Below, in pieces: positions 1,581 to 64,000 of a stretch of 64,000 nt of DNA. How positions within the stretch are numbered: position 1 is the first letter of the stretch; each line of letters begins with the position of its first letter. A program made the translations under genes and the position numbers. Under the pieces are notes generated by a model. That model did no database searches and was not told the DNA's origin. It worked only from the letters and a program-made list of their open reading frames with translations. Source of the DNA: Strigops habroptila (taxonomy: Eukaryota; Chordata; Aves; Psittaciformes; Psittacidae); assembly GCF_004027225.2 (NCBI RefSeq), contig NC_044279.2, positions 53,530,744 through 53,594,743 of the forward strand. The letters run 5' to 3'.

Positions 1581-1774
1581 CTCGTGTAGTGTATCCTCCA
1601 ATAACGTAGATCTTGCCCTTACATTCGCAGGCTGAGAATTCTGCAAGAGGGTTTGGCATGGACGCTACAAAATTCCACCAGTCGTTTTCTGGGTTATAGC
1701 ACTCCACGTTGGAAAGGGACTGACCACCAATGGCATACAGTTTTCCATTTACAGCCAAGAGCTTAAAATTGGAC
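1581..1774 (-). CDS. KLHL42: KLHL42 coding exon 2
   Basis: This 194-nt exon follows the acceptor TTTCTTTCAG and ends CGAG before the donor GTAGAA. It encodes two kelch blades with the double-glycine motifs IGGQ and IGGY, and closely tracks human KLHL42 (SNVECYNPE, NPLAEFSACECKGKIYVIGGYTTR). Entry completes the split Arg codon; exit is in phase 1. Confidence 0.95.
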
Positions 1775-9667: not shown

Positions 9668-10230
9668 CGCTCACCCCCTCCGCGGCCTGCGCTTCGCCCC
9701 GGTCGCCGCCAGCTCCGGCCAGGCCCCTCCTCCGGCCCGCCGGGATGGGCGGAGCCGAGCGCGCCGGGCCGAGCTAGGCCGGGCCTGGCCTCGCCGGGGA
9801 GGCGGGCGAGGGAGGGCTGTGGGCAGGCCCTTACCGGGCGCTCTGTCCCTGCAAGGAGAGGAGAAGGGAAGAAAAAAACGCAAGCCACCAGAGAGGAAAG
9901 GAGAAAAAAGCCCTAAAAGGCAATGTTGAGCGCTGCCCCTGCGCTGGGCACGGGTGTTCCACCCGGCCAGGCGGGCGGAGTGCTCGGCCCCGAGGGCAGA
10001 ACAGTGTGTCCCCCCAGACCCGTGTCCCACCGCGGCGCTGCCCGAATTGTGCCGGGAGCGCAGCTCTAACCTCTTGCCATAAATGTACTCGGCATCCCTG
10101 CAGAGGAGGAATATTCTGGAACCGCAGACGCGGGAGGAAAAAAATGGGGTGTGTACGTATATTTGTGTATCCGGGGAGGAGGAGGGAGCGGTGCCCTTGG
10201 CACGGGCCTGAGGCTGTGGAGGCATTCCCG
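8900..10230. promoter_or_regulatory. CpG island and promoter of KLHL42
   Basis: GC content and CpG frequency rise sharply from within KLHL42 exon 1 to about 0.55 kb upstream of its ATG, against an AT-rich background. It includes GC-box-like CCCGCC and GGGCGG strings near 9730-9830 and 9965-9980. The transcription start cannot be fixed from sequence. Long frames on both strands here are by-products of GC-richness. Confidence 0.75.
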
Positions 10231-19200: not shown

Positions 19201-19808
19201 TTCCACCTCTGACTGGCCAACAGAATTAGATAGTTCAGTTTGCTAGTGAAGAAGGAAACTGTATTTGCGGCCACCAGCTAATTCAGAAGAAGTTAAGACA
19301 CTAAACTGAGCTGTGTCTTCTGTGTTGAGTGTAATAGTGTGCCTGAACAAAGTGGCAGACCTTCCTGCTCTCGAGTGTACTGCATACTTTCAGAGATGAG
19401 GTGAAACAATATGCTGAGCATACCATTATTCACCGATGGTAAGGCTGTCTGCCTAGTTTGCTCTTAGAAGGACCAGAGACACAAACTGGAGACCAAAGAA
19501 ACAAATTCTCTGAAGAACTAAACACAACCTGTGCCTTTTGTCTCTCAAAAACTGTCTCCAAATAATTTAGAGAACAACAATAGTAACTGTTACAATTGTG
19601 TGTAGCTCATGAAATGGCTGTTTCCTTCTAGCAGCTGCCTGAACAGCACCATGGGAATTGTTTGGAAGAAACATCCCTTGGCTTATGTCCCTGGCAGAAT
19701 TTGCAGTAACCTCATCGCTCAAGAGATTGTCTCTTAAGAGGCTGGTCCAAACTTTAGTGCATCCATAGAGGAGAAAGAGCACTGAATAAGCCTCATTACA
19801 TTGAAGAA
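10231..19808. other. Intergenic region between KLHL42 and MANSC4
   Basis: This is 9.6 kb between two divergently transcribed genes (KLHL42 minus, MANSC4 plus). I recognise no protein-coding exon, RNA gene or clear transposon. There is a near-perfect palindrome at 12283-12305. The open frames here (for example 11103-11477 and 13860-14270) have biased, low-information composition and no recognisable domain. Regulatory elements may exist but cannot be identified by eye. Confidence 0.5.
12283..12305. repeat. Near-perfect palindrome, 11-bp arms, 1-nt centre
   Basis: AGATGGCCTTT and AAAGGCCATCT flank a single G. Such dyads can be binding sites or cruciform-forming. No repeat family is recognised around it. 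Confidence 0.7.
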
Positions 19809-22835
<3,027 letters not shown>

Positions 22836-29002: not shown

Positions 29003-29281
29003 TCATGGTAATGCTTGTATATTCAATAGTTTCTTCACAGATTCCTTATACTGAGACATATTATTTTCTGTTTCACCTTCATTTTTAAGTGCAATTACAG
29101 AGTTTCTGTAATTTTTAACCACTTCAGATGCAAGAAGCTCTTCCTTAGATACATTACTGACATTCTCTGAGGCTTTTATTCGAAGTAGGGTATCCAAGGC
29201 ATTTTTCTGAGAGCGGCTATTTTCCCAAGTATACTCTTCCATGTCTTCCTCAGCCTTCTCACTCTCCCACATCTCAGTTTT
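29003..29281 (-). CDS. MRPS35: MRPS35 coding exon 8 (terminal)
   Basis: The acceptor is TTTCTTTCAG. This exon encodes the Glu/Lys-rich C-terminal helix region ([41 protein letters not shown]) and the stop. The protein ends a few residues later than the human one. Confidence 0.95.
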   Translation of the reverse strand, partial: KTEMWESEKAEEDMEEYTWENSRSQKNALDTLLRIKASENVSNVSKEELLASEVVKNYRNSVIALKNEGETENNMSQYKESVKKLLNIQALP

Positions 29282-32200
29282 CTGAAAGAAAATATACATT
29301 GTCTTAAAAACTAGTCAAGACTGAAACAAAGCTACAATAATTGGAGGAAACTTATCTCTGTACCAATTCACTTTAAAAATTACATTCGTTGTGGAAGATA
29401 TTTCCCCTCCTCTGAAGTACCGGGCTTGTAACTCAAGCCTCAAACAAAGTTCAAAAGGTGCCTGTATGCCATACATCTTCTGTGTACAGAATGAGTTTCT
29501 TTCCTCCCACTTACCAAGCTCTTTATGTATCTGGCAAACATATCTTCTAGCTGAGTCAGAATAGGAAAAAAAGCTTATAGACTAGACATAATGAATAATG
29601 ACAAATCTTGTAAAAGTAATAATTTTAAATGACCCTAAATGCTCAAGCTTTGGAAGTAGCCACCTAGCTATTATGTCCCTAGCATATTATTTTGATACGT
29701 TTACATTGGCTATAAGATGCGAGTCAAGACAGCTCATACCAAGTAACCGATGATGAGGGACAGCAATCCTTCATCATTTGGGAAATATTTTAATTGTGAC
29801 TCATAAGGAAAAGCACCACCAATCAATCTATTTCCTCTTCCTGCAAAACAAACTGCTCCTCAAAAGAATCTCTATCTGCAAGGTGCTAATTTTTAGCTAA
29901 TTAGTAATAGTAGACAGGATACTGGGGTTATTTAATCTAGATAAAAGAAGGCTCAGGGGGACCTTATCACTCTTTACAACTACCTGAAAGGAGGATGGAG
30001 CGAGGTGGGGGTCGGTCTCTCCTCCCAGGTAACCAGTGATAGGACAAAAGGTAACGGCCTCAAGCTGCACCAGGGTGGTTTAGATTGGATATTAGGAACA
30101 ATTTCTTCACCGAGAGGGTGCTCAGGCATTGGAACAGGCTGCCCAGGGCAGTGGTGGAGTCACCGTCCCTGGAAGTGCCCACAAACAGTGCAGACAAGGC
30201 TCTTAGTGATATGATTTAGTGGTGGCCTTGGCAGTGCTGGGGTGATGGTTGGACTTGATGATCTTAAAGGTCTTTTCCAACTGAGTTGATTCTTTGAGAA
30301 GTTAAACACAGAAGACATCAACCCAGTGCCTGTAAATACGTGGCTTCTGCAGTTGCTCTTTATAAATTTTATCTCTGAAAGTTTCTCCAATTCAGCAGGC
30401 CTTCCTCTAGCTTCACAGTCTGCTTAAGAGATATTTCAAATGTTATAAGCTACTACTTTTGTATATTTAATTTTTATTGTACTTTAGCAAATAGATATGC
30501 TTTGTAGATATATCTGTATTTTTATATATTGTAGACTGTATACTTATTTACATATTTATAATTATTCAGTACTTTAATGATATAAACAGAGGATCCTTAT
30601 TTCAACTATATAAGAATCACAATTTGAAATATTGTTGGTGCTCAAGTTTTTCTTACAGTTGTTGTAGAAATCGTATCTAAATAAAAATTATATTTATCTG
30701 GGAGTGAGTTCAAGGAAATATTATAGTAAATCATTTACACTGTATGGATAGATGGATTTTATTTTTTAAAATCCCCTGCCAGAAAGGGCTCTAAAGTAAA
30801 TTTTTAGCTAGGCTATGCAGAGTCCAAATAGACCTGGCAATCACAGGAGGGTTGGGTTTCTTTTTGCTTGGGTTTTATGGGAGTGGGTTTGGGGGTTGTT
30901 TTTCATTTAAAGTACTCTGTCCACTAGTAACAAGGTTGCTGCAGTCAAACCACAATATTTAATAATCTTTAATTAAGACTTAAGGTTATTTTTTTCCCTA
31001 CACATCTGTGTGCTTGGGTGTCTCTATCTGAATTTAAAAATACTTTAACAAATGCTGCATGCTGCACCTGGTAAATGGAATCGCTTGTCTTTTAAATCTC
31101 CAAGTCCAAATGTTTAGTCAGAAACAGTGATTAACACTGCTAGAAGGCTCATATGACTGACATTAAAGCCTGGACACAATACAACACAGAAGTGAAAGAA
31201 CCTTATTCAATTTTTAGAGGGGAAAAAAATAAAGGACAGCATGTTTTGCTGAAACAGTAGTGGAACAAGTAGGTATAGCAAAGTATTCCTAAGTTTGAAT
31301 AATACTGCAATTCAATGTGGAGATTTAGATAGTTTTAAATTAACTACATCATCCTGGTTTACATATCCCTTGTTTATGTGCATAATGGCTATCCAAGACA
31401 TTTTTTTCCTAAACTCCAAAAGGATTTTAAAGCAAAAGCTTCTCTCACAGGGATAGGGTTTCTCAAGAGTAAGGGGAATATGGGTATTGCCCCTGGTCAC
31501 TCCCTGGACCAAACTCATGTTTGAAGTTCAAACAAAAGATTACTGTGAGGCTTTTAAACACCTTTATAGTAGAGATAAAAACTAATTACAGTTATGACAT
31601 TACATTTATCTCTTCAGGAAAATCCTTCTCTGCACACATTAACTTACAGGATTTTGGAGATGCATGCTGATAAACAGATTAAGATTTCCCCTCTCTCTTT
31701 GGAGCGATACAGAGTAAGGTTTTAAAGGAGGTCAAAGAAACTCTTCAGTATTTCTTTCTTGGAATCATTCCCAGTAGAATGGTGTGTCAAAATTGATCTT
31801 AAAATAAAATCTGACTTCTGGGGAAAAGGGAGGCAGGAAGGGATTTGACAGTAGGGGGAGATTTCAAAATCCATTCCTCAGCCCTGCTACAAGAAGCCAG
31901 TATCCATTGCTGCAATGTTGGTGGCCGTGCCTCAAAATGAAAAGTTATCCTACTGTACACAGGTCCAGACATACATCACAAACAGGAAACTGAACAGAAA
32001 CCAGATATTTGCAAACTGACTGTATTGAGCAAAACTTAAATACCTTTCCAACTAGATTTATTACAAGAGAAAAAGTGAATCTGGAATTATATATTCATTT
32101 GAAAAAGTACTGTAGGTAGACGAGCACCTATGAACTGAATAGTGGAAATGTTACAACTGTTGTAGTCTTTATTTAAAGTGTTATGAAGAAAACTAATGAG

Positions 32201-35200
32201 ACAATGTAAGAAACTTCAAAAATGAGGTCTTCGTCACTCAAAGTTTTGTTAGTCATTTTGTCCCTGCAAATTTAAAATGTTAGCGAACACTACACAAAGT
32301 GTGTTACAAATGAGAATGTGCCTGTGAAAACGGAAATACAAGTTTGCCACTGTGTGACATTTTTCTAAAACCCCCACTTAGTGTACAAGGTTAGAAATCA
32401 AGAATGTATTTTTCTTCATTGAATGCACTAAAAATGATTGCTTCGTTCTATCACACATTAGGCAGAATCTCAGTATTAACCAACCTGGCTGAAGATACAC
32501 TTAGCTGATAATTTCAACTGTTTCTCTTACCAAAACTTTCAGTAAGAACTGGAGGGTGGGGGGAAAAACCCACAAAAAAATCACCAGAAAACTTTTCATA
32601 TATATTCAAAGGAACTAAACCTATTACTAAAGAGGCCTGGAAGATTTTTTTTTTTTTTACACTTCCTAATGCAAATATTATCCTTTTTTTTTTTTAATGT
32701 CATAAACCACATATCGATTTGTTTCAAATAAAACCTTCTATGCTACAGGTTAAGCCAGTTATTTTTTGAGGTTTACAAGCCTTTATAGTGCTTAATCTGA
32801 AGTGCTGACACAGTATAAATCAGTTCTCTGCTGTTTCTTTGGGGAAAAAATATTTTAACTAGAATTTGTATGTGGCACACAAAAATCTTCAAGGCAATTA
32901 AAAACATGACTCGTGAGTCAATTTTCTTGTCAATGGTTTGAACACTTCAAAAATTAATGCTGTTTATGTTTAGCAAAATCAAATATTTCAGTGGGATTTT
33001 TTTTTCAGGAGAAGGAAAGTCCTTTAAGTTGCAAGTCAGGTTTCAAACTCTATACAGCCTGGAATAAATACAGCAATGGCACAGGGCAAATAAAGCCTCT
33101 AGAGCATCCGGGAGTCACAAGAAATACTGTGACAACTAAACATTCCAGTAAGGAACAAATGCAAAACAGAAAGGAGAATAGATAGAGAAGAGCGAGCTTT
33201 GCCTCAAAAAATAGTATTGGAAGTAAGAGATGCTCTCATACTTAATCATACTCACAGGCTTAATCTGTGGTTCTGTCACCAACTTAATTGCCCTCAGCAG
33301 TCAACATCATCTAGGTTGCCTTTTTATAAATGAAGGACAACACCCCACTTCTCTGGCTGAAGTGGCTGCATGTATTTTCTAGAAAATCCAGGCTTCTGAC
33401 AGTCATTTGTAGTAAGGTATTTATCTAACTCAGTTTGTAAGATTCTGATCTTACGGGGCATTTTGTTATGCCCGATAAGACTTCATTTCAGTCCGACATT
33501 TAGACTGAAAATTAAACACCTGTAAAAATTATATTTATGCTTCAAAAAGGAGTCTTGTTTCTCAAGCAACACAGGGCTTAAACATAAGGTACTGCACAAA
33601 GCCTACTACAGTCTGAAATGCTAAAGACAATTTTGAAATCAACCTTTTGCTTCAATGTTTTATCCTTTGTGGTTCCAGGCAACAGGAGCAAAAAAAGCTT
33701 AACCTTTTTTCACTACAATGCAGATTCCCTGTCAGCAAAACTCTTTCCTTTGATTTTATACGTCTGAATTCAGATCACCAGAGAATGTTTATTAAATTTA
33801 TCATCTACTATGCCACTTAGCTTTATCTTTTCTGATTCACATTAATGATGAAGCCTCAGGCTGTTAGATTTTGAGCACTGCTGAGTGCAAAATGAAATGT
33901 AATACATACTTCAAAACAAAGTTTATATTACAACATTTACAGACCACCCTTACTTCAGCCTCAGTTTGTGTTATTTAAACCATATATAATGACATGCTGA
34001 GAAAGAACACTATTGTAGGACGGGGATAATTATATCACACTTCATTATTCTAAAATCTCAAAGTCAGGAGATTTACACTAAGCATTCTTCAGTTACACTA
34101 AAAGGTGCCCAGAGATCTACATCTGTCTCTCCCAGGTACATGCTCTAATCACTAGGCTACAGCCCTCCTTTTCATTCAATGAACTTTGAATTTTCTTCTG
34201 CCCAGGGAGAGTTGTTTCAGCAAGACTTCAGATTTTCTCCCTCCACCTCCCATTTTAACCCTGCAACCCATGTGTTGTAACATCCTGAATGTTCAGAACA
34301 TGAAGTTAAAGTATACTTTTGAAACCTAAGCAGCCAGAGACCTGCTTAGGTTTCAGAAGTGGACTCGTATCCTTTCACATATTTTAGGCTGAATTACAAG
34401 GTAAACTGCTATGGTGAAAACTACAAAATTCTACTGTTACAAAGTTCTACTGGCACAACCTGAAGTGAAAAGAAATATGCTTACTCGTAATTGTTTAAAA
34501 TGACTATAGATGAAAAAAAGACAACACAATTTAAGTGTTAACTGGTCTAGAGAAAAGCTACAGAATGTATTTTAGGATTATGACCAATGGATATGTAAAA
34601 ATATTCATTGAGCTGCATGCATACACAGATTCCCCACCCCAGCAATGCCGTGCAGTTGAATACTCTACTGAAAAAGGAATGCAAAAGAAATATGGGACAC
34701 TTCCCTCAAATTCCTTCTAACTACACAGCTTTGGGGTTCACAGATAAATTTTACTAAAGCCTCTAGTGCCACTCTATCCATTCTTCCAGTTTTTTTCCTT
34801 CCCTCCCCTTTCTGCTTCAACTTCCCTGTCCTTTCATTTCAAGTACTATTAACGTCTACAATGCAAACACAGTGCAAAGAGATGCACCCAGCACACCCTT
34901 GGCTATTACTGTACATATTCAGTAGCCACTTTCCACTTATCCCTACTTCTATATTCCTTCTTCCTTACTGTTTTTTTAAGTCTTGAATCTTTTTCATCAG
35001 ACTCCCGTAACCACACTACTAGAAAAAGCAAAAGTTCAGAAGTGCGTGTACAGCATTACTCCACTGTTATTCCTGGTATGTTAGATTAGACCTTTTACTT
35101 TAAGAAACACACTGGAGAATAGAAAATGCAAGGGCGACTTTTCACTAATCTTTCAAGATCTCAGCTGTGTAATGTAAAATAATATCCTCCACTCTCCACT

Positions 35201-38200
35201 GACTTCCATTTGTGTATGTTGAAAATCATGTGGAATCGGAGCAAAAAAAGTGGCTGCAACTTGCAACTTTTTGTCCCTTTTATAATCACTATGAATGATT
35301 TTCCTTATTGGGAAATTAACTTCCTGCTCCACTTGTTTCTCCTTTCTGCTTTCAACTTGTAACAGAACTTTTACTTTTTAGTGATAAACTATTACTCTGA
35401 GGAGTGTAAAGAAATCTGTTCATGATCTTTTTAACCACTTGAGGGCAGCAAACTCTTACTCTTTAAAAACCACTTAATACGTAAAAATACATTCAGGTTT
35501 AGAAGATGTTCCAGCATTCAAGAAGTACCACCGTTTAAAGGCTGCAGAAATGCAAGCGATTGAGCTGCTGTTTAACAATCTACCTAGAATATCTGACCCT
35601 TTCATTGATTAAATCAATCCATGCACAATCCTAAAGGGTAATTTGAAAGGAATCACAGAAAAAGTCCAAAGAGGGTAAGTTCAATTCTTACCAGACTGCA
35701 CATGTCAGATATCTACTGAACACATTCTAAACCCAAATAGAACACAAATATTTGATTTATAATCTGAAAACTATTAAACAGGATGAAAAATGCAAAAGAT
35801 CTCCAAGTATTTTAAAATAAGAAAATAAATGTACATTCTTAGGTTTTAATATATGAATTTTTTAACGATAACTGAACTCATGGGCCTGGTATCTATCTGC
35901 ATTTATGAAAGCTAAGGTGCCAAATGCATCACTCTGGTACGCTTCTCACTTCTTATGCATCTCTGTACTTAATAAAAACTTCAACTAAATTGAGCTCTCT
36001 ATTAGATTTTAGCAGCCCATTAGCCAACCTGTAATTCAAGTATTTTGAACCAAGACCACAATATGTAGACCCCTAATTAATACTGCTCCCATTGTTCAGA
36101 TTCATCTCAAGAAACAGCATGCTGTCTTACCAAGCAGATACTATCAATCAACCAATATGCTGCCAGTTTTCCGTACAGCTTCATAGTTCACTACATACCC
36201 AACAAAACCACAATGAACTGTCATTCTTTTAAAAAGGTTTCAGATTCCTAAACTACTTGGATGCTCCAGTTTGTAACTAATAAAATTATGCATCACTAGC
36301 AATTAAAATATAGTTACACTTGAAACTACATTTCCCAATTTGTATCTGCATACAATTTTTCCTTCTATATATTCACATCTTTGCTGGTTCACGAAATTCA
36401 GTAATCCATTATTAACATAAATTATAGAGTTATGCCATATTTAAGAGAAACAGCAGGCAAAGTTTTCAGGACCGAGGGCAAAATTTACATGCAGTCAGCT
36501 TTGCTTTCACATAGCAAGAATGTAACGCTGCCCTCATCTTTTTCTTGAATTCCATCATGCACATGCATTAAAACAGTGTGGCATTACTCTGCTGGGAAAG
36601 TCATCAAATCTTTCAATCAGTTCTGTAAACAGCATTGATGCTACTGCCTACATGGAAGGCCATTTCCCATCCATCCCCCTCCAGTATTAAAGTTTGTACA
36701 AATTAAAATAAACCATACATTGTTTGCTTATGGCTCACAATATGTATCAAACTATCTTTCAGCAAGTTATTAAAAGGCATTACCACTGATCATGGGAAAA
36801 AAACCCAAACAAGCAAACAAAAACCACACAAAACAAAACATGTCAGACAAAATTAAAAAGTCATGTCTGTCCTGGGTTCAGCTATAGCAGTCATTTTTCT
36901 CCTGCTTAGTAGCTGGTGCAGTGCTGTGTTTTTTAACTTTCAGTCTGGGAACAACGCTGATAACACTGATGTTTTTAGTTGTTGCTAAGTAATGTTTATT
37001 CCAACCAAGGACTTTCTCAGTCTCATGCTTTGCCAGGGAGGAGGGGAAGCCGGGAGGAAGCAGAGACAGGACACCTGACCCAAACTAGCCAAAGGGGTAT
37101 TCCATACCACAGCACGTCATGCCCAGTATATAAACCGGGGGGAGTTACCCGGAAGGCCCAGATCACTGCTCGGGTCGGGCTGGGTATCGGTCGGCGGGTG
37201 GTGAGCAATTGTATCCTCTCCCCTTGTTATTTCACTAATCATTATTATCATTGGTGGTAGCAGTAGTGGTTTTGTGTTATACCTTAGTTGCAGGACTGCT
37301 CTTATCTCAACCCGTGGGAGTTACATTCTTCCCATTCTCCTCCCCATCCCTCCGGGAGCGGGGGGAGGAAGAAGGGGGGGGGGGGGAGTGAGCGAGCGGC
37401 TGTGTGGTTCTGAGTTACCGGCTGGGCTCAAACCACGACAGTTCTTTTTGGCGCCCAACGTGGGGCTCGAAAGGTTGAGATAACGACAGATCTGACCAGA
37501 GTGTGTTTAATCATATTTGTGATAAGCATTCATTGTTACTACTCGTCACAATGGTGATTATTTGGCTCTCAGACGTGTTGCGCTTGATCTCAGAGTTTCA
37601 GCATGTTGTACCTTACTTACAGCCACTATTTGCTGTTTTAGCGTTTATCGGCTGGGGGGCCTGGGCTAAGGTTCTTGTTTCACTGTACTTCATGGTAATG
37701 ACTTGTAATACAATAGACTCATTGATCATGAAACTGGTCTGGTTTGTGCTTCCAGCGTGGCCATCACCACTATACATTGGGAGGTATATAATGAAATATT
37801 TTAGCAATTGCATATCTTTTTTTTTCTCCTCGGGGGGTAAACTTACGAAGGAAGCATTCTCTTTCACCCCCCGTTCCCCCACCAGCCTATTTGCAACAGC
37901 AATTGAGAGTTCTGAAGGTTTTAGATGGCCTTTGAGTACCCTTGAAACCTGCCTGCTGATTGTGCTGGGGATCAGCATGTTGGCAAACATACGGAGTGTG
38001 TTTTACCCACGGCCATCCCGTCGTAGGAACATCCTATTTCGTTTAATGTCAAAAATTCAGCAGTATCAGGTTCGAATCTGGTCTAGGGTTAGACGACGAT
38101 ATAGGAGGACCACCAGGAGATTTTCCCTGAGGCTGGACAGTTATGAGTGGCAGGGTGTGTGGGATAGTATGGGCAAGTACCTAGGCCAGTGGGCCCCTCC

Positions 38201-41200
38201 AGTGCTTTGGAACGTCACCACTGAACAAGTGCAACATCCGGAAAAACTAGTAAAACACTTAAACGAGGTGTGCTGTCGTCCTGGTTATACCAGAGAGGGA
38301 CAAATTTTGGCAACATGCTGGGGCTTGGCCTATGCCTACAGAGCCCTGCTCAACACTATCCAGCACCTTCAAAGGGAAAAAAATGTCTCTGGATCTGATG
38401 GCAAAGCAACAGACAACGCAGCTATGCCAACTACAAGCACAGCAGCTACTCAGACCCTGACCACAACAGTCAACACAGCTACTCCAAGTACAGCAGCTAC
38501 ATCAACCCCAGTGACAAGCACAACAGCTACTCAAACCCTGACCACAACAGACAACGCAACTACTCCAACTTCAAATACAGCAGTTACACCAACCCCAGTG
38601 ACAAGCACAACAGCTACTCAAACCCCGACAGCAACAGACAATGTGGCTACTCCAAGCACCACAGCCACACCAACCCCAGTGACAAGCACAGTAGCTACTC
38701 AAACCCCGACAGCAACAGACAATATAGCTACTCCAAGCACCACAGCTACACCAACCCCAGTGACATGCACAGTAGCTATTCAAACCCTGACAGCAACAGA
38801 CAATATGGCTACTCCAAGCACTGCAGCTACACCAACCCCAGTGACAAGCACAGTAGCTACTCAAACCCCGACAGCAACAGATAATGCAGCTGTTGGTGTT
38901 ACTCAACTCCCAAGCACAACAGCTGCACCAACCCCAGCAATAGACATTGCAACCACTCCAATCCTAGTGGCAGACACTGCAGCCACTCCAACCACAGTGA
39001 CAAACACTGCAGCTAAACCAAATGTCCAGTTTGTGACAATGTCTGTTGCCCCTGTAAGCAAAAGCAGACGAAAGGCACAAAGAGCAACCCGCGAAGCGAA
39101 GAAAGATGAAGACCCAGTGCCATTACTATATGCAACAGCACCTGAACAAGAGTTACTACTACGTGGGTCAGAGGAAGAGGAAGAAGAGGTCACTTCTCGA
39201 CCCTGGACCTCAACCGAACTACGGAATATGCGAAAAGATTTCACCCGTCTTCCAGGGGAGCACATTGTCACCTGGTTGCTCCGGTGCTGGGACAATGGGG
39301 CCGACGGTCATGAACTAGAAGGTAGGGAAGCCAAGCAGCTGGGATCACTTGCTAAGGAAGGAGGAATTGACAAAGCGATTGCAAGAGAGAAGCGAGCCCT
39401 CAGTCTTTGGAGGCGGCTCCTGGCAGCTGTGAAGGAAAGGTTTCCCTACAAAGATGATATTACGAATCGCTCAGCCAACTGGACCACGATAGAGAAAGGC
39501 ATCCAGTCCCTGAGGGAATCAGCCATTATAGAGATGATCTATTGTAAGCCGGATTCCAGGAACACATCCGTAGATCCAGATGAAGTCGAATGTACACGAC
39601 CCATGTGGCGGAAACTTACAATGTCTCAGGAGACCATTAAGTTTTCATGGGAATCAAAGACCATTACAAGTGATTGATGAACTCATCAAATATTAACATG
39701 GAAGATGAAAGGTAACAAAAGAGCAAGAGACTTGTGCATATTCAATACACACTGAACACGAACATAGCAATATCACATAGCCCTGCCTTCCATCACTAAG
39801 TAATGCCAGAGCAAAGGACAGATGTGGTGTTCATCTGGAATTAATAAAGCGAGCAGTGTCTAGCTCTCTTGTCATTGCTTAATACTGGAAACTGATCTGG
39901 CATTACTTTAAGATTTTGTAATGCAATGTAATGCTCTTCAGGAGAAAAATATCCACGTGAACAAAGCACTTGAAATCTCAAGTAAATGTATCTTTTAAGA
40001 TGTTAGTACAACCTGAATTTAATTTGATGCGTTCTACAATTACAAAATGTACTCTTCAAAGCAACTTCCAGTGAAATAGAAATATAGCTCATCCTCCTGA
40101 TGCTTTTTATGTCATCACTGCAAAAATCAAAACCAAGAACACTAAAATTCATAAAAATGCTAAATATGGAGATTTAACTGAAATACTATAGAACAACTGA
40201 AAACAGGAAGTCTGAATTTTAGTACCTAATCAGCTACAATTTAGTTAAAAGTGTACTTCTATGGAAATATACTGATGATGAAGGCTTTCATTGTCTGTCT
40301 CTATGTGTGCCTAAAAAAGTACTACTTTATTATATATATTTATTATATTATATATATCTAATGTGACTAATAAAGTATTACATTTAAACAAAGCAGAATA
40401 CTTCCAAGTTACAGCCATGATTTACTGCAGCCCAAGACAGATTCTAATTAACAGGTAAGAGTTTGGAATCAGGCAAAATGTAAATACTGTTCTGTCTGTT
40501 GGCTTTCATAGCTCTAAAGCTGGTAACATACCCCTCTGCTTCTTTGGAATAGACTTGTTTTCATCCTCAAACATGGTCTGAAAGCACACAGATAACAGGT
40601 GACAATCACAGAGTATACCATTTCTCTGGATGCACTTAATTCATATTTGAATATTGTGCATAGGCAGCCCAGCATGCTGGCTATATTTAGGAATCCTGAG
40701 AATTAGGGCATTTGCCGTTAGGCTCAGGGTCAGTTTTAGGCTCGTTGTTGTGAGAAACAAAGTATTGGGAAAGAATCTCATATTAAGGTCAAAAACTACA
40801 GAACTTCTGAAAATAGGCAAACTATGTATACAAACAGGATAGCATTTGTGAAGTTAGAAGAAATGCACCCTAAGCTGACTGGAGAATTGAGATTCAAACA
40901 TAAGCAACTTAGCTTGGTTAAATTTGAAAAAAAGTAAGGTGGAAGAGGAAAAGAATCTAAGATAATTTAAGCTACACACAGTCATGGAACTTTTTATAAC
41001 TTATGAGAGAGCATGCATGTGCATTAAAGAGCAAGAGTTATTCACAACTGCTTACCCAGGATTCATGGTACAAAACTGTGAGGAGGTGTATGCCATAATC
41101 ATAGTTCTGTCTTCTTAGCGGACACCTGGAAGTTCAAAAACAAAGCTGGTCTTTTTGAAATCAAGCCACTTTTGAATGAAATGTTAACATTAAAATTTCT

Positions 41201-44200
41201 AAGTTTGAATGTAGGGAAGCTTAGGGAAGTTTGTGTTTGATTCACATGCATTTCTGAATTACACATAATAGAGAATAACATCATGAAGGCATGAGTATTA
41301 AGAACAAAGAGGAACAGGCATCTGCAGGTCAGCAGAGAAGCTTAACAAAATGCAAGAATTTACAGATCTTCAGGAAATGTTAAAAACTTCTTTACCCTCT
41401 GTGCCAAAGTGGAATCTAACATATGTTAAGTCTGAACTCCCTTAAAACAGGATTTATTTTTTTCCTCCAGATCTGAAGGAAGGAGTATGACTGGTGAAAA
41501 CAGCTATGAAATACAGTTCAGAACAGACCTAGCCAACAATTTAAGAAGAAAAGTTCCCATCAATGTAGCTGTAAGTCAAAACAAGATCACCAGTAAATTC
41601 TGTTGGGATAAGACACAGTCCTGCAAAACCAGTGTTTTTCTTAAAATTAGTCATCAAAACCTTCTGCTAAGAATTTGATGACAAGTAATCTCTTCCTCAT
41701 GCTGACCAACCATAACCTCCTGTCTATTTCTCACACTCATCTCTTCCTGCAAGCTCCTTTACTCCTCCCTTCCCCCCTACCTTTTGATACACAACAAACT
41801 GCATCATGTGAGATTACATCTAAGACACTCTAAAAATCACTCATCTGAATGACTATGGACTATGACTATTCTAACAAATACAGTTCAAAAAGCACTCCAG
41901 CTTTTGACTTGCATTTAAAAGCAATCTAAATACCAGCCTGGAAAATCCTATATTGAAGATATAGATACCACTCAGAGGTTGGGCTTCAGAATATACTAAA
42001 AATAAAGTGAAATATCAACAGGCATGTTAAGAATTTCTTCTGGAACACAGCATGAGGCCATTCACAGATGCTCTAGAGGGTAAGCTCCTTTCAGCCACAA
42101 AATAAGTTGTGCTAGGGAAATGAAACTGGTTGGTAGCACAAGTGGCCCTGTAAACTATACAGATTTCCAAGTCTAGTCAGAAAAGCTGTGCACAATATTA
42201 TCCATTTTGTATTGATTTTGTGTAGAATAAAACAGTACGTCATACTGAAGGACAGGAAATTCAAGAGGGGAAGAAGAATTCTAATAAAAACATGCAAACA
42301 GAAAAGACTACCAAAATATTCTTCCTGAGAGCAGCTGTGAATGAAGGTGTAGTGTGAATTTAGGAATACATATGTATTCTCTTAAACACTTCAGAATTCA
42401 ACATATGAAACATGTTTCTCCAATGCAGCCGTCTGCACATAACTGTAAATAACTACAGTGATTTGTTTATATCTAGAATATCTAAACACTGAGAAATACC
42501 TGGTCACCAATGTAATTTTTCTTGCCTGAAACTTCAGATCATTGTTAAAACCTACTGGTTCTGTTGGGAAACATGACAACTACTTTAAAATAACATTTGA
42601 GACTTCAAAATACAGAGCGTCAATAACTAACAATATGTAACAAATATTAGGTTTGACCTTGTGTAATTTGTCCATTACAATTTTAACAGTTAACAGGAGC
42701 ACTGGTACGTTTAAGCCATATTTTAGCCTTAAAAGTGTAATAATTTTCCAAGAATAACTGGTATTACTGGAAGACACCCAGCCCCTTCTATACTGTGACC
42801 ATTGCTACCGGCATGTTCTTTCTTTTGTGTAACCATACCTGTCTGTTATAATTGTGAGGATATCTGTATCCTTACAGTACCGCTCTCCTACAAGTTTAAT
42901 GAGCTTCTTCTTTGCATGGTCATCCAAATTCAAGTTAGAAAGTTTAACCTTCAAGTACAAGAGAAAACACCTTTAATTGCTTGGATAAATCCAATCTTTG
43001 CACCCTGAAAATATTTTGAGATAGTCAGACACATCTTTGATCAAGAGCTATTAAATATGCATTTGCAGAATTTCTTCTGATTGTATCATATCAGAAATAT
43101 TAACACAAGGCAAGTATAATATGAATATTCAAACAATAGATTTCTTTTCATCCAAACGCCAGAGTGGCTGGGGGAGAATATTTCTACTCAAACTTTTCTT
43201 CAGAGCAAAAAAAGAGCTGTCAGTTTAGTTTTAAGCTGTATTTCATATTTATATGTACTTCATATGGAAATAATAAATCTTTTTTAGGGTTGGGTTTTTT
43301 TTTTTTCCAAAATACAGATCAGTAAAGTTAATACTAAGATATACCAAAGATCTTTATTACAAGCATCCAAAAGAGGAAGACAGACATCAGTTCAAGAGAC
43401 ATCAAATGAGAATCCTCAAAATCATTATTAGGAGTTAATTAGAAGTTTGCAAAGATGCACACAGTTAACAATACAAAGTTAATCAAACAATAATGTGAAT
43501 GGCTTGTCTTCTGTTCCAATACCAGGAAACCTACAAATACAAGATATACAAAGAACTACTATTTATTTGAAAAAGAAAAAAAAAAAAAAAAGGGCAACAA
43601 AACCAAAAAAAAACCCCACTAAGTTAGTCTGAAGCTAGTTTCTATGTGCACTAGCAAGTATGAAAAGTAAAACAAGCTGGTTTTACCTATCTGTTTACAC
43701 GATAGCAAATAAGAAGGTCGAGAACCTTAACAGTCTAAACATACATGATATTGGAAACATGAGTTTCTATTAAGTGAGAGTTGCTAAGGCATATTAAAAA
43801 CATGAGGACCTAATAGTAGTCTCTTACTAATTTGCATACAAATTTGTGAAAACTTGCTCCTGACCATGGATCTGAATTAGGAGACAAAACTAGAAAGGCT
43901 GAAGTCTAGCATGCAATGACTACAAGGGGATGGTGAAGTTACTGCTAACAGTGGTGTGAAATACCTATTTAAGTCAATGACAGACTAAATTAAATTTCAG
44001 CCCCAAAGGTTTCACAACATAAAGGGAAAGTGAAGACTCCTACAGACAAAATGAACTATTACAGTTCAAAGTCACCATGATTAGACGTTGTATCAGTGTT
44101 ACGAGCATGTGGCATCATGCAGTATTTGAACTTCTATACTGACAGAGTAAGAACACAACTATCACTGACCACACTACTGCTGCTGCTCTTAAGGTAGGCT

Positions 44201-47200
44201 CAAATCTCATCTCAAAAACACATTCAACTCCACAGCATATCCTAACTTTACTACCATGAGGACAGGCAAGCACTGGATCAGGTTGTCCGGAGAGGTTTTA
44301 CCATCTCCAGCCTTGAAGGTTTTCAAGACGCAACTGGATAAAGTCCCAGGTAACCTGGTCTGATCTCATACCTACCTTACTTTGAGCGGAAGGTCAGACT
44401 AGAAAACTCCTGAGCTCCCTTACAACCTCAAGTATCCCATGATTCTATGATTAGAAGGCTGCCTCTCCTACTGCATACATACTGATGCCTGGAGGCTTGC
44501 CAACTCAATACTTACTAATAGCGCCACATTCATATGACCCACCTTTCAATACCTACGCACTTCTGGAGTCTATAAATTAGGAATGAGTCTAAGCAAGACA
44601 CTGAGGTACAAAGACATTTACACACTCATCTATAAATAGATACTTCAGAAGCTGCAATATTTTGTTTATATCAGAGCTTAGTCTTCATTTATAAACACAC
44701 ATCCATAACCTTACAACCTCAGTTCTAACATGCTTAAGGAAATCCACTGCTTTTTATTCAGACATTCAGTAAACCATTTCCCTCATTTCCTTACAACATC
44801 ATACTTGCACCTGAGTTTTCGGGGGGGGGGGGGGGGGGGGAATAAAAATGGCTGTTTACCAAAAATACTACTTACTCTTAAAGTCACCACTCTTGCTTTG
44901 GGATTACGAATAGATGTCCCTGAAGAAACATAATCTATTGTTTCAATTTCAATAGGAAAATGCTGTTCACATTTCTCGTCACTGTCCAAAGCACTTGGCC
45001 ATTCAGTGCAGAAATCTGTATAATAAAGAGAAAACACTCCAAGTAATACCTGTTCGTTTGTTTGAGGTTTTTTCAAATTTATTGCAATGCATGTTTTAAA
45101 AAGTTCCATTTATAGAAACCATACTCATTTAGATAATGGCAGGGTCTCTGCTAGACTTGCTCCAGTATTTCAATGTCTGTCTTTGTTCCCCCAAATACGA
45201 CACAGTACTCCAGATGCAGTCTCGCAATTGCCAAACAGAATCACAGAATGGCTAGGGTTGGAAGGGACTTTCAAGATCACTATGTCCAACCCCACTACCA
45301 CAGCCAAGGACATCTTTCACTATATCAGGCTGCTCAAAGCCCTGTCCAACCTGGCCTTGAATACATCCAATGATGGGGCATCCACAGCTTCTCTGGGTAA
45401 GGTCTTCCAATGTCTCACCACCATCACTGTAAAAAATGCCTTTCTTATGTCCAGTCTAAATATCTACCCTCTTCCAGCTTAAAATCATTGCCCTTTGTCC
45501 TGTCACCACAGGCCTTGGTAAAAAGTCCCTCCCCATCTTTCTTATAAGCCCCCTTTATACACTGAAAGGCAACAATAAGGTTCTCTTGGAGCCTTCTTTT
45601 CTCCAGGCTGAAAAACCACAGCTTTCTCAGCCTTTCTTCACAGGCGAGGTGTCCCATGCCTCTGGTCATTTGTGTGGCCCTGCTCTACCAGGTCCATATC
45701 CTTCTTCTACTGGGGATCTCAGAACTGGATGCAATACTCCACAGACGAAAAAGAATTTTCTCAATGTGGAGGCTACACTCTTGTTAACAAAATCCAGTAC
45801 GTAGTTAGCTTTCCTTGCCACAAGGGCACACTAGTGACTCATGCTGAACTTTAAAATGCCCACAAGGCCTCTTCCGCAATGCTTCTTTCTAGCTGTCTGC
45901 CCCCTTCCCATGCTTATACTGTCATTCCATCCCAGACGGAGGTCTCTGCAGTTGCCTTTAACTTCATGAGGGTCCCTGCAGTGGGTTTTTTTCTTGCCTG
46001 TTGACATCCCTCTGAATGGCGGCTCTGCTCTTCAGTGTATCATTTGTTCCTCCCCAGTTTGTTATTATCAGAACACATGCTGAATTTGTGCTCTCTACTG
46101 TTACCCAGGTTGTTACAAAGCATGTTTTTGTGTGCTGGGAAATGGCTTCCAGGAAGGTTTGCTTCATAGCCTTCCAGGGAATATGGCGATGCTGACTGAC
46201 CTGCATTTTCCTGCATCTTTCCAGCCCTTTTTAAAGATGGTCAGGCAAAAATCTGTTCCTCCTGGGTAGTCTTTCCCTGCTTCCACTTTCTGTGTACTTT
46301 CTTTTTGCATCTCAGGTCACTCTGGAGTCCCCTGCACACCCATGCAGTCCTGCCATATTCACTAAACTTTCTGCACACAATGGTATGGACCATTCTTACT
46401 CTTTTGAAGAGGTTGAACTTAAGCACCCACCAGCTCTCATAGGTCAGTTTGCTCCCCAGGAGAGCCCCCTGTGAGATTTGCCAAGCAGATTTCTGAATAA
46501 GCTAAAATCACTCTCCCAAAGTCCAGACTATAGTTCCACTGTGTCTTGCTCACTTCTCTCAGGATTTTAAATGCTAGTTTTATGACCACTGTTACCAAGG
46601 CTGCCCCTAACCTTCACATACTTCGCCAGTTGTTTCTTGTTTCTGAACAAATCATCCACCAGAGCACATCTCCTAGCCAACTCATCAATTGTCTGCATCA
46701 AGATATTGCCTTCAATACCCTACCTGCCTTCCTCACTTCTCTCAAAATCTTAAACTCCACAATCTTTTTGCAACTAAGGCTGACAGCAACCTTGACATCT
46801 CCAATCAGCTTTTCCATATTTGCAGGTGTGTGCAACACAAGGCCTTCCCATAGACAGTCTGTCCAGCATCTGCATCAAAAAATTATCTGCAACACACTAC
46901 AGAAATCTCCTAGATTGCTTCCATCCTATCCCATTACCCTTCCAGCAGATGTGGACATGGCTGCAGTTCCCCATGAAAACCAAAGCAGTTGTGAGGCTTT
47001 TCTCACTTGCTCATCCACTTCCTTTTTTAAACCAGGCAGTCTGTGGCAGATGCTCACCAAGACATCCTCTTCAGCTTCTCCTCTGATCCCAACTCTTAAC
47101 TAGCTTGCTACACATCTCATGGCAAAGCTTTGCATCTGAGCTTTTGGGTACAAGTTAGCTCCTCCTCCATGTCATCCCTGCCTGTACCTCAATAATACAA

Positions 47201-50200
47201 ACTTCTGCTCTGCATTTATGTGACTTCTAAATTTTCCTGTTCCCTATGCTGTAAGCATTTGCTTACACGCAACTCAGGACAGGCCTCTCATCTCTTATTA
47301 TACAGGCCAAGGGGAGATCTTATCACTCCAACAACCACCTGAAAGGAGGTTGCAAGAAAAGTGGATGCCGATCTCTGTTCTCAAGTAGTAAGTGACAGGA
47401 CAAGAGGGAAGAGCCTCAAGTTGCACCAAGGGAGATTTAGATTGGATATTAGCAAAAATGTCTTCATCAAAAAGGTTGTCGAGCACTGGAACAGGCTGCC
47501 CAGAGAAGTGGTTGAGCCACCATCCCTGGAGGTATTTAAAAGACGTGTAGATGTGGCACTTCGAGACACGGTTTATTGGTGGACTTGGCAGTGTTAGGTT
47601 AACAGTTGGACTTGATGATTTTTAAGGTCTTTTCCAACCTAAATGATTCTATGACTCTATCTCGTACCTGCCCCTTGTGCCTCTCCTTGGGCTAACCTCC
47701 TCATTAGGTTCTCCTTATTGGCTTGCTGGCTGGCAGAGATGCTCTTGGTCTCCTCTAGATCCTGGATCTCCCCAGCAGACCTTGCTCTCAGCGGTTTCAT
47801 TTATTAATAGATTATTTTTTTTAATGCATGCTGGAATGGCTACGGATTGAACCCTGGTTTAATAGGTTTAACAGGTAACCTTCTGAGAACTGAGCCACTA
47901 AACTATAAATTCTCCACTACAAGTAGGGCCTAATGGAAAGCTAAAATTAAAGTCTTACTGGTGTGCTGAAAACCTCCTAAGACCTATCTGCCTACCACCT
48001 GTAGGACTCAATGCAGCAACAAACAAGCATACAACACTAGCCAAAGCCTGACAAATAACCAGCTTCAGAGGTGGACCATGTCTCACCTTCTTCACCACAC
48101 ATAGTTACATTTTTGTAACATTTTGTGCATTGCCTTAAAACTCTGAGAGATGGTTTGTAAAAAACAGTAAACAATAAAAAACAACTCACCTTTAAGAGCT
48201 GCACAGTGTTTCTTAATTGCAGGAGGAGTAAGATGCAAAAAATTGGGAATCTGAAACAGATACATTAAGAGTTACCAAAATAATAACTTTTTGTCTGTTT
48301 ATAACTAAATGGGCATTACTGAAATCTGATTACACTTTTAACTTTTGTTAAGGCAATACAATACCCTTAATAAGATATTCAGATAAGATGACTCTTCTCC
48401 AGTCTGATTTAGCAAAGGACTTAAGTTGGCCCCATTACATAAGTACAGGCATGATAATCCTAAAAAACTCTCCTGATTTGGTTCATTAAGTACACTTGTA
48501 TTTGTTACCATTTATTTTAGAAATTAAATAGAGTATTATCCTATTTAATAATAGAAAACAGCATCTAATACAAATAGGGCAGTGCAGTCTTAAAGAATAA
48601 TAAATTTAAAGGCACATATCAATGACATATGTCTTACCTTCATAAGTTCTAAGTTGCCTTCTTTTGGTGGAGGTACACCTCTCTTCACTGGGTAACCCAT
48701 TCGAATTGGGAGAGGCACAGAGGCAGATTTAAACACAGCTGCTGTTGGATAAACACTGGTCCAGTCCTGATCAACAGCCATCTTCTCAGTTCTGGGAGGT
48801 ATATGCTAATAAATTGAAAATTAGAAAAGTCTGATGAGAGACACTGTTTCGTGAAACCAAGCAGGAGCAACACCCCCCCCAGTTATTTCAGGAATAAATT
48901 TCCACAGCTAGAAATTTCAAGACACCTTTACATCAAAAGTTAGTGTTCGTCTGTAAAGGAATTTGTAAGAGACAGCAGGTCTTTCCCAATCTTCAGTTGC
49001 ATTTTATTTCAGAAATGCTTAGAAAGAAGTACATACATTTACTACGTGCCAGGTCCACGTTTACTATTTGCCTTTAAAAATCATAATACCTAATACACTA
49101 CTTTTGAAATTTATGTGTGGAATAAATAAGAAAATTCCCAGTGATTAAACATTCAGGTATCAATTTTAATTCTACTTTTAAAGAACAATTTCACTTATGC
49201 ACAAAACCAGGGGTTTTTTAATTATGCCAGAAAGCAACCACTACAAGTCCTGTAAAATCAAACTAAAACCAATATTGAAATGTCTGGTTTTATTTTAAAG
49301 GCAACTTTAAGTTACTTTTAAGATCTGCAGTACACAGTGTCAATACAGGCTAACTGTTAGCTTGTTACTGTTAATGGTTTTGCGCCTTTATAAGAACATG
49401 GACTGAAAACAGCTGGGAGATTCAAGAAGTGAGGTGCTTGCTCTGGAATAGTCACAGTGGATTGTTTCACCAGGTTTTGACTGCAGAAGCAGTTTCTGTA
49501 CAAACTGTTAAGACATAGAGCTTAGGAAACTTTTTCAGACACCCAAGTTAACTGCAAACAGTTTCAGTGCTTACTGGTCTTATGAACTGTGATGTCCTGC
49601 CTCTTCTCCTTGCTGAAGCTGAAAAAAATAGAAACATTTTCAATACAAACTATTAAACTCTCTCTTAAACACTTTCACAGCTTCCCCCTCCAAAAAAACA
49701 CCACCAGAACAATGTGGTCTTTATAATAATCAGACAAGCAAAGGTGGATCTGATTACAATTATTTTTAAGTGTCCTGTTTCAGCTTGGGATTTGTTTGTT
49801 TTTTAATTATTGCTACATTACAATAAAGTATGTATTCAGCAAAAACACTGAATGGGATTTAGGAGTGGATGTTTGGGTTCTTTTTGCCCCATTAATTTGA
49901 CTTTACTTCTGCCCCACATAAGCCTTGGAAAGACTTGTGAATTTCACAGTTATTTTGTTTTCCTCGTCTAGGTATTTCATAGATACAATTCTGTTCCTCC
50001 TCTTCTTGCTATATAAAAATGTAAACTGAAGAATACACATGGGGCTCTGTAATAACTGATACACAGAATTCTTTTACCCCTTGATCTGCCATTTTTGCTG
50101 TGCTTTCACAAAGAGACACACTTCATTCATATCAATCTTATTATTTCTGTTACAAACATCTACAATTTCAGGGCAAGAAACATTTTACTTCTGCACTGCC

Positions 50201-51427: not shown

Positions 51428-51430
51428 CTT
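51420..51430 (-). promoter_or_regulatory. YY1-type motif over the MRPS35 start codon
   Basis: The minus-strand AAGATGGCGGC matches the YY1 consensus and contains the initiator ATG itself, an arrangement common in ribosomal and mitochondrial protein genes. Confidence 0.6.
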
Positions 51431-51712
51431 CGGGCCTGCCGCGCAACCCCCCCCCCCCCAGCCAACCCGCCGGCACGACAGTAGCCGGCCCGGGCCACGC
51501 CAGCTGGAAAGGCGAACCGGAGCAGTTCCCCGCCCTCAAGGAGGACGGGAGCGGGCAGGGCAGCGGTCGGCGAGGGAAGGGGAGGGCCCGAGCTCAGTGA
51601 GGCTTCAGGGGCGTGACGAAACCGCAGCAGTGAGCTTATGGCCCCACAGAGCGGGGCGGAAGGCAGAGGAGGAGCGGAAAGTGCTGTACGGTCGTGCTTT
51701 GTGTCGTGCCTC

Positions 51713-51722
51713 CGCCATCTTA
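51713..51722 (-). promoter_or_regulatory. Second YY1-type motif upstream of MRPS35
   Basis: AAGATGGCGG on the minus strand, about 290 bp upstream of the first motif, near the outer edge of the CpG island. Confidence 0.5.
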
Positions 51723-52170
51723 CTGCCTGTAGTTCGCACCCGCGCTGAGGGGGCGCGGCCGGTCCCGGGCTGTGGCCCCAGGGGTGGGGTCGGGGTTTTT
51801 GCGTTGGCTGTTTCGCCGAAGTTGGTTTCTTCCTCTCACAAATAAAAATACAAGTTCTCGGTCCGAGTGCTTTTTCTACTACCGAAATAGGGACTAGCTC
51901 CTCCACCGACCCCTGAAGCAAATCTCCCTGCATTTCTTTAGCAAAACGCAAACAGGTTCAGCCCTGTGTGAACCTGTACTAGAGAATGCTGGTTTTCTTC
52001 AGTGACAGCTTTTTTCTGCTTCCTAGAACCTGTTGCATGCAAGAGTAAGTGTTCTTTATAGCCATACATTTGTACCCCTGGCCATGCTCAAAGAGTTCTT
52101 GGCTTTTAATCTGTTTGCTTCAGGTTACAACATACCCGTAATGTATTTTATGCTTACATTATTAATATAG

Positions 52171-60294: not shown

Positions 60295-61148
60295 AAGTCT
60301 GGCCCATGAAATACATATTGATCTATAAGAGCCTTATTTTCTATTCTGTGTTCTGTAGGTACTTGCTTGAGAGTACTAAAGTTAGCAGCAAACATTAAAT
60401 GGTTTGAAGAAAATCAAGAATCAGGCCAGGAGTCTTTGATCTTTTCCCTTATAACAATATTAACCTCTCAGTTGCAGTTATTGTTAACGGCATCATCATT
60501 TCTACACTTGAGAAGAATTGTTCATGAGTACCATGGGCTGCAAGATCAGATCCTGTGAGGTGACTGAAAGAATTTATTCAAGTCCTAAAAACTTTCTGTA
60601 ATGCTGATGCTCTAGATAAGATCTCTTGAAGTGTAGGTGTTAAGTTCAAAACTTCTATCAGGTGTGTTTCAGGTAACAGCCAGTTTATAAATTCTAGGAA
60701 ATTTTCACAGGTCCACTTCTACTCAGGACACTTCAAGAACTGCTCAGCTTAAAATAATGCCATAAGGTCAACTCCCAAGGTAATTTTGCTGCTATACTTG
60801 TGTTGCACTATTCAAATAGTTTTAAGCTTCCTTCTTAACAAATGTAACTGTGAATCTTAATTTTCTTTCTTCCTCCAGAACTCAACCTCTTTCCTTTCCC
60901 AGCCTTCTGTTACTTCTGGCATCTAGCATGTGCTGTTGTGTAATATGTTTCTCTGATTTAATTTCAGAGACTGTGAGTGACAGCAGGTGACAGGCTGACA
61001 GCTCACACTTGTGTCACAGAGAAGCTCCGTGATAACAGCAGAAACTCATCAGCTGCTGGAGAACACCCTCAGCAGGGAGGACATACAGTACCTTCATTGT
61101 GATTTTAAATATTGATCAGCATTAGTAATACCTGTGTGTTGTTACAGA

Positions 61149-61531
61149 ATGTCCTGTGATAGCGGAGAAACCGTTGGGCACCCCATGTATAACCGCTGTG
61201 AACAGGTTCAAGGCTCCACTTCCCAACTGAGCAGTCTGAATGGAAATAGGGAACCTGCAGCATTGCTGGGAGCCAGGGGGAGCTTAAGCAATATGCAGTA
61301 TTCTTCTGTGGCGCTGGATCCAGAGACTCCAGGGAATAATGGAGCTGGGATTCCCTGCAACCCTGAGGAAAGCACAAAAGCTGCAGCCTTGGCAGAAGGT
61401 GAAGTCCGCAGGGCCTGTACGACAAAGTGTTTCTGTAGCCGTTACTTAACTAAAACTAGTACGCAGGGAGATGTCTACAACTTCCTGGAGAGGCCCAGTG
61501 GATGGAAGTGTTTTATCTATCATTTTATTGT
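61149..61531 (+). CDS. KCNQ1-like voltage-gated K+ channel, coding exon 1 (partial gene)
   Basis: The ATG at 61149 opens 127 codons plus 2 bases, closed by donor GTAAGT. The last residues ([20 protein letters not shown], then [10 protein letters not shown]) match the start of the Kv7.1/KCNQ1 channel, where the equivalent is [22 protein letters not shown] just before helix S1. KCNQ2-5 instead have YNVLERPRGWAF, so this is KCNQ1-type. Human KCNQ1 exon 1 also ends after two bases of a valine codon in the same HF.V context. The rest of the N-terminus (Ser-rich, with a Cys cluster CTTKCFCS) is unlike human KCNQ1's proline-rich one. A TTGTTACAG just before the ATG could be an acceptor from a 5' noncoding exon. 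Later exons must lie beyond the window; KCNQ1 has a very long intron 1. Inferred to be a KCNQ1 paralog, not KCNQ1 itself. Confidence 0.85.
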
Positions 61532-64000
61532 GTAAGTATCTACATCTTCACATCATATTTGGTATAAGGAAAATCAAACTATGCCCTTAATCAGCCAGAA
61601 ATCATACTTGAGTACCATCATCAGTACTTGAACTCCTGGGCTGAACACCTGTTACATGAGTAATCCCACTGAAAGCAATGGAAAAGCCAGTTTCTTGAAG
61701 GATCAGATGCTATATCCATTAACATTTCCAGAGGAGAGCTTTTTATTTGTCACATGATATTTGTCAGGTGTAGACTGTGTATTTGATATTTCTGAGGGGA
61801 AGTCCTATATGTGCACGGCAGTTTTTATTGCTGCCTTAGCTGCTTTACATTGTTCTAGCTTCAGACACTGCAATTTTTAGCGTGAGATGTAGAAGGTTCA
61901 GCTGTGATGAAATACATCACGTTTTTGTAAGTCAGTTTTGCTAATGCTGAAGTGCCAGAACAAGTGATCTGTTGGATAATCATAACATACTAATTTGAAT
62001 TAATTTACAGCCACGAACGCATAATGAGTACAAATTTAGCAAAAAGTTCTCCACTATACCATGTATGTAGTACACGCAATGATGAAATTAAGGCTTCCAT
62101 TTACCCTTGCAAACCAGTGGTTAATATATTAATACAGCTGTTACTGTTTTCTTTGAGCTGCTTATAGTATCTGTCAAGCTTTGCGAGACCACAGTTACTG
62201 TTTTGAATGCTGCTTAGCAGAATGATAATTTATCATCTTAGCTATAGAAAGGGTCCAATTGTGCTCTCACTGAGGCAAGAGGACGTTTTACTGGCTATAG
62301 TGAATGCAAACTGAGCCAAAAGTCCTTGCTTTTATTATAAAATTAGCGTATGTCCTAAAGAAATGCAGAGTGTTGAAACTACTCTGTTTGTCTTAGATGA
62401 ACTTTTCTATGGCCTGACTGCATTTTAGAAAAACCATTATCACTTACTGTAGTCAGGAGCTGCCCAGAGAAATATATGGTAATTATAAGAATGAATCATA
62501 ATGCCTCTATTTGGCATGGAATAGATGGTTTTATTAATACTTACTGCCTTTCACCACTCAAAATCATATATGGATTTTTTAAAAGGATTTTTTGATGCAT
62601 GAAATTTTGCCAAGTAAAAGGATAGGGCCTCTTTCAGGTATGTTTATAGTATACAATTCCTAAGGCTTAAACGGGTGTAATTTGTGTAGATATAAATATG
62701 TGAATAGTCATGATTTAAGCCTATTTGAGGTTAGGATTTAGTAATCTTGCTAAAATGCATTTGTTTCATCCTCTCTGTTGCTTTCATCTCAGACTAAGGT
62801 TGACCTTTAGTATGGACTTACATTCTGCAATAAGCATTAAAATAAGATAAAATTAAATTAAAAAATCTACGCACACACAGCCCATACAAGAAAATTGGAG
62901 AAAATAGGTATTGTTAACAGACAACTCTGGGTTTTTTTAAACTGTTCAAGGATTCCTAACTTAAATGAAAGAATATGTAAACTGACCTCCTTTAAATGCT
63001 TTTTCTTTGAGATTACTTGAAACTTTTTAGACATCATTTTTGGCCAGTATTTTGTCTTAAGTATATTTGCCCTACTAATTATCCCAATAACTACATGGCA
63101 TGTTTATTTATATAGCAAGTTTCTGTTTTGGAAAGAACATCCTTTACAACATTCAATATCACTACAGTTAAACATTGTTAAAGCAATAAAGTGCTAATCT
63201 AAAATACAATTAATTCTATAATGAGAACAAGCTGTAATTTATTTTTAAAAAGGTTTCCCATGTTGTATCTGTGGGTTTGGGGTAATTTATGTAGAGTTGG
63301 TATGATGGCTATTTTCATAACAAATCCAATCTTCCAAGTATGCAGATGATGTTTGTATAGCCTGGAGGAGCTGGATGTTCAGTGCCCCTTCATTGTCCTT
63401 TTGTCTTTCATGTGTCACAAAGACCTCATAATTTATGTATAAACTTGTGGGACTTTTCTATCCAAGAGGGACTGGAGTCTCTTCTGATCTGGAGCCAGTT
63501 CTGCTACAAACCCCCTGACTTTCCAGAAACAGGCAAGGCGAGGGAACAAGAAGTGCTCCAGGAGGTGACCTTCCTTTTGTATCCTGAAATGACCAATATA
63601 ATCTCATCTCCTATAACATTTGTAGTGTGTCTGATACTTCAAGTTCCTTTTAAGGGAGTAAACTGATGCTTCTTAAGGAACTTTATAATATGTGTTAGAA
63701 AAGGGAATTATTTTTACCTAATTAAATCTGGAATTTGTGTTATTTTAGTGGAGTTATTCTAGGCTAAAATTACGTTTTCAAAAACAAAACGTTTGAAGGC
63801 GTGAGTGGATTTGCTTGAGAATTCCCCCTCCCAGTCCTGGAAACCTCCTCAATTAGGTGATTTTCAGCTACACTGTAGGTACTGTGAAAAACTTAACTCC
63901 TGAAATCCCCAAGAACAGAGTAGAGGATCTCACTGACAAGTTAGAAGGAGGTGTGGGCTTGAGAAACAGCTATGACATGCAATAGTAATACATTGATCCT
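61532..64000 (+). other. Intron 1 of the KCNQ1-like gene (start)
   Basis: AT-rich DNA after the GTAAGT donor. I searched for an exon encoding helix S1/S2 (like FLIVLVCLIFSVLSTIEQY) and found none on the plus strand. The frame at 63382-63666 has no channel-like sequence. No transposon recognised. Confidence 0.6.

Follow-up and report, generated by a model that had tools for sequence, protein, structure and literature searches.

The question raised by this locus is whether a KCNQ1-type exon lying beside MRPS35 in Strigops habroptila belongs to a second KCNQ1 gene, distinct from the canonical one and missing from mammals. The window, i.e., the whole stretch of DNA that was analysed, comprises 64,000 nucleotides, and all positions refer to it; its features are collected in Table 1. 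In our assessment, the coding sequence of KCNQ1L very probably begins with this exon; KCNQ1L would be an ancient additional gene of the KCNQ1 (Kv7.1) type which birds and further non-mammalian vertebrates have retained, whereas mammals have lost it.

Table 1. Features at and around the KCNQ1-type exon (positions within the 64,000-nucleotide window)
Feature	Positions	Strand	Basis
KCNQ1L first coding exon, 127 codons plus 2 bases	61149..61531	+	KCNQ1-type end, ATG, donor
KCNQ1-type block, 29 residues, 29th codon (Val) finished across the splice	61446..61531	+	21/29 residues as in human KCNQ1
Splice donor GTAAGT	61532..61537	+	KCNQ1 exon 1 phase
Putative splice acceptor directly before the KCNQ1L ATG	61133..61147	+	Prediction; 192/4511 plus-strand AG sites score equal or better
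MRPS35	29018..48802	-	Six exon matches to human MRPS35
MANSC4-like gene	19758..22832	+	MANEC-like stretch and open frame with hydrophobic segment
KLHL42-like gene	1459..9670	-	BTB and Kelch matches in two open frames

Similarity searches in both directions confirm that the exon is genuine and of the KCNQ1 type. When human KCNQ1 exon 1 was used as the query on the window, the exon was matched with 60.1 bits (E 3e-14), whereas the same query on 200 dinucleotide-shuffled windows gave a best score of 24.6 bits and a median best score of 19.2 bits. Conversely, a phmmer search of PDB chains with the entire exon as the query returned 19 rows up to an E value of 10, headed by ten KCNQ1 sequences with E values of 5.5e-9 to 1.7e-8 and including two KCNQ5 sequences at 0.12 and three KCNQ2 sequences at 0.3 to 1.5. 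The signal resides in the end of the exon: the last 38 residues alone, searched in the same way, gave 28 rows up to E 10, with 42.9 to 44.8 bits for ten KCNQ1 sequences and 15.3 to 19.3 bits for twelve sequences of KCNQ2, KCNQ4, and KCNQ5, members of the same channel family which thus match weakly in the block where KCNQ1 matches well. The claim of the first-pass annotation that the exon is KCNQ1-type and no product of chance is borne out by the distance from the shuffled windows and by the lead of KCNQ1 over its relatives. The remaining PDB rows, four for the whole exon and six at an E value of about 1 for the 38-residue end, came from unrelated proteins and were put down to chance.

Upstream of its last 29 residues, the exon product shows barely any alignment with human KCNQ1. 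Likeness to Kv7.1 lies in the shared residues of the terminal block and in the exon phase, and unlikeness in the hardly alignable N-terminus and in the different locus. The block itself presumably corresponds to the KCNQ1 stretch just before and into the S1 segment, and by the same placement we take the exon to encode a cytoplasmic N-terminus followed by the start of S1. A Pfam search of the exon returned no family, and the GC content at the three codon positions (0.48, 0.53, and 0.49) reveals no bias. The frame is open from position 61116 to 61535 on the plus strand, with the stop counted and the ATG at 61149. Its length of 139 codons is no evidence in itself, because shuffled windows contain longer runs (median longest open run 151 codons, n=40).

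The exon ends at a compatible donor, which is observed directly as TGT|GTAAGT, with a perfect intron side and a weak exon side. Judged by a consensus matrix, 264 of the 3211 plus-strand GT sites in the window score equal or better, and the donor at 61532 is plausibly genuine, though not diagnostic. The exon is cut after two bases of a Val codon, and human KCNQ1 exon 1 likewise stops after two bases of a Val codon. The earlier claim of a donor in KCNQ1 exon 1 phase stands as to the GTAAGT and the position of the cut, and the agreement in phase presupposes this human boundary. At the other end, an acceptor is predicted to end at 61147, and therefore a noncoding 5' exon may lie upstream of the ATG; note that stronger acceptor-like sites are present at 60727-60903. 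No CpG island that might serve as the KCNQ1L promoter was found at the exon, the nearest such stretch being located at 50901-52100.

The position of the exon beside MRPS35, as stated in the first-pass annotation, was verified by six matches to that gene on the minus strand; the search had produced nine rows, three of which were dropped (E values of 0.59, 2.9, and 4.6). The nearest counted match lies approximately 12 kb from the exon on the opposite strand, and since the exon is directed away from MRPS35, the two genes are arranged head to head. Farther away, the names MANSC4-like and KLHL42-like were given by position and are to be taken as our assumption. The MANEC-like stretch of the former scored 19.3 bits (E 0.0013), below the Pfam cutoff of 25.5, and its open frame with a hydrophobic segment had no significant Pfam match. 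CpG-island-like stretches were seen at 9201-10500, 37001-37600, 39001-39600, and 50901-52100, i.e., where the KLHL42-like gene and MRPS35 would be expected to start, with two weak ones around an open frame of 732 codons (37479-39674, plus strand) inside an MRPS35 intron. The longest frame in 40 shuffled windows had 207 codons. In this frame of 732 codons, a unit of 81 bases is repeated in tandem 5.6 times and encodes a Thr-rich stretch; the frame gave no Pfam match up to an E value of 1 and no significant PDB match, and our impression, which we offer as such, is of a retroelement gag-type protein. A tRNA scan of the window returned none. A CR1-type tail motif, looked for as a sign of avian DNA, had no match over 16 bases and a few matches of its short forms, and is uninformative. 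For the later KCNQ1 exons, encoding S1 to S6, the GYG pore, and the calmodulin-binding C-terminus, a tblastn search with human KCNQ1 at E values up to 10 gave no convincing match in 61533-64000, and these exons would be situated past position 64000; hits elsewhere in the window were scattered, with E values of 0.8 or worse.

A gene fitting this description is already known. In a songbird study, Lovell et al. (2013) named a second KCNQ1 locus KCNQ1-Like (KCNQ1L) and placed it in zebra finch on chr1A between MRPS35 and CDKN1B (ENSTGUG00000012696), with the canonical KCNQ1 located separately on chr5 (PMC3711925). From the same source come further coding sequence of KCNQ1L, its KCNQ motifs, and its conservation at the locus (PMC3711925): the gene is apparently conserved in chicken on chr1 (where gaps precluded a model and the listed interval spans about 19.4 kb), lizard, and zebrafish, the frog gene is partly syntenic, and the frog and lizard models are 78.2% and 77.3% similar to that of the finch. 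The finch and frog models were reported to carry 3/3 KCNQ motifs and 5/9 KCNQ1 motifs; motifs 2 and 4 may have diverged, motif 8 is partial, and motif 9 is missing (PMC3711925). Mouse and human have no KCNQ1L according to these authors, and in both species the flanks abut what appears to be a breakpoint (PMC3711925). Our exon shares with the gene of Lovell et al. the KCNQ1-type sequence and the place beside MRPS35, in a gene absent from mouse and human, and no difference was found in a comparison by locus and published description rather than by alignment (PMC3711925). The first-pass annotation called the gene not known to its author; it had been described, as KCNQ1L and at the same locus, in 2013 (PMC3711925). 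Its further proposal, that the copy was kept in birds and lost on the mammalian line, agrees with the reported absence from mouse and human but was drawn too narrowly, as lizard, frog, and zebrafish are reported to have the gene as well, with the zebrafish assignment perhaps open (PMC3711925). The label KCNQ1L in a bovine paper (PMC2848150) denotes, where it was encountered, a primer and not the gene. Literature located for MRPS35 together with KCNQ1, and for the Ensembl identifiers of the gene, held no further KCNQ1L study in the text accessible to the search, and no functional study of bird KCNQ1L was met in the literature searched, as far as its accessible text goes.

As to zebrafish, the second kcnq1 gene (ENSDARG00000088397, possibly kcnq1b) resembles KCNQ1L in being a second KCNQ1 gene, and two candidate readings exist, namely a KCNQ1L ortholog and a teleost-only copy. 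Because teleosts underwent their own genome duplication and because zebrafish chromosomes 7 and 25 presumably both carry 11p15-type genes, this copy may be a twin of KCNQ1 that is confined to teleosts, and not KCNQ1L. This teleost-only reading touches solely the fish part of the claim made by Lovell et al., who place ENSDARG00000088397 with KCNQ1L (PMC3711925). In Wu et al. (2014), the same identifier stands for a kcnq1 gene that is located on chromosome 25 and for which no transcripts were reported, the other kcnq1 being on chromosome 7 (PMC4016485), and kcnq1b is listed in PMC5659376; a second zebrafish kcnq1 thus appears in expression papers (PMC5659376, PMC4016485).

Two alternatives to an intact second gene have to be weighed. 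That the exon is the genome's only, canonical KCNQ1, moved here by misassembly or translocation, would agree with the single exon visible in the window, but the residues of the terminal block speak against it. Specifically, human KCNQ1 and the KCNQ1 of PDB entry 5vms, which we take to be from Xenopus, differ from one another at 4/29 positions, whereas the exon differs from each of them at 8/29; at four sites human and 5vms agree against the exon, and at none does the exon side with only one of them. This pattern speaks against a canonical ortholog, because a bird KCNQ1 would be expected to join human KCNQ1 in a group and not to fall outside a pair formed by the human and frog proteins. As the sample is small, with few such sites, and as fast change could also explain these four, the pattern supports, without proving, that the exon is not simply the canonical KCNQ1 ortholog; to that extent it also favours the earlier claim of a copy besides KCNQ1. 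As both genes are reported at separate loci in the finch (PMC3711925), we regard a displaced canonical KCNQ1 as highly improbable. Somewhat less remote, but still improbable, is a decayed remnant of KCNQ1L, a gene that would have ceased to produce a channel in this species. Such decay would fit the one exon of the gene seen in the window as well as the partial gene model and the lack of an in situ signal in finch brain as reported by Lovell et al. (PMC3711925). In the same paper, however, a finch brain cDNA clone, FE721111, was assigned to the gene, with the qualification that nearness to the 3' end of a model was, on rare occasions, the ground for selecting a clone (PMC3711925). Against decay there is also the exon itself, which is open, has a conserved end, and is followed by a GT donor.

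With regard to the origin of KCNQ1L, its neighbours are informative, CDKN1B and CDKN1C being paralogs. CDKN1B flanks KCNQ1L in the finch (PMC3711925), a flank which here would fall past the end of the window, and CDKN1C lies within the KCNQ1 block at 11p15.5, where human and chicken share a conserved stretch from IGF2 to CDKN1C (PMC2427030). Because CDKN1B adjoins KCNQ1L as CDKN1C adjoins KCNQ1, a genome-duplication origin gains support (PMC3711925, PMC2427030), and KCNQ1L is plausibly the genome-duplication twin of KCNQ1. In narrow searches, this pairing was not found in print: PMC3711925 makes no use of the word CDKN1C, nor does CDKN1B occur in the main text of PMC2427030. A search for papers on a paired block of PTHLH, ARNTL2, and SOX5 found none on that subject. 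Alternatively, KCNQ1L might stem from a separate small duplication and not from the early vertebrate genome duplications, which would concern its origin only; Lovell et al. go no further on this point than to name fish as the likely setting of the duplication (PMC3711925). We consider a small duplication unlikely, since both the CDKN1B/CDKN1C arrangement and the wider, putative paired blocks listed in the first-pass annotation fit a duplicated block.

Mammalian physiology counts five Kv7 channels. By homology, the product of KCNQ1L would be a six-transmembrane subunit of the Kv7.1 type, and four such subunits would assemble into a voltage-gated potassium channel, perhaps together with KCNE partners as in the case of KCNQ1. 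The gene would have arisen as the genome-duplication twin of KCNQ1, and it would have disappeared from mammals where the chromosome broke between MRPS35 and CDKN1B, a break proposed by Lovell et al. (PMC3711925). On the whole, we lean towards the reading that KCNQ1L functions as a sixth Kv7 channel and is the genome-duplication counterpart of KCNQ1, just as CDKN1B beside it is that of CDKN1C; non-mammalian vertebrates would have retained the channel gene, and mammals would have lost it through the MRPS35-CDKN1B break. In birds and other vertebrates, a sixth gene of the KCNQ1 type could take on part of what KCNQ1 does in heart and epithelia, and therefore heart models in chick or fish may lack a one-to-one correspondence with human long-QT biology. 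This significance for heart models holds even though KCNQ1L, a gene which appears little studied, has already been catalogued.
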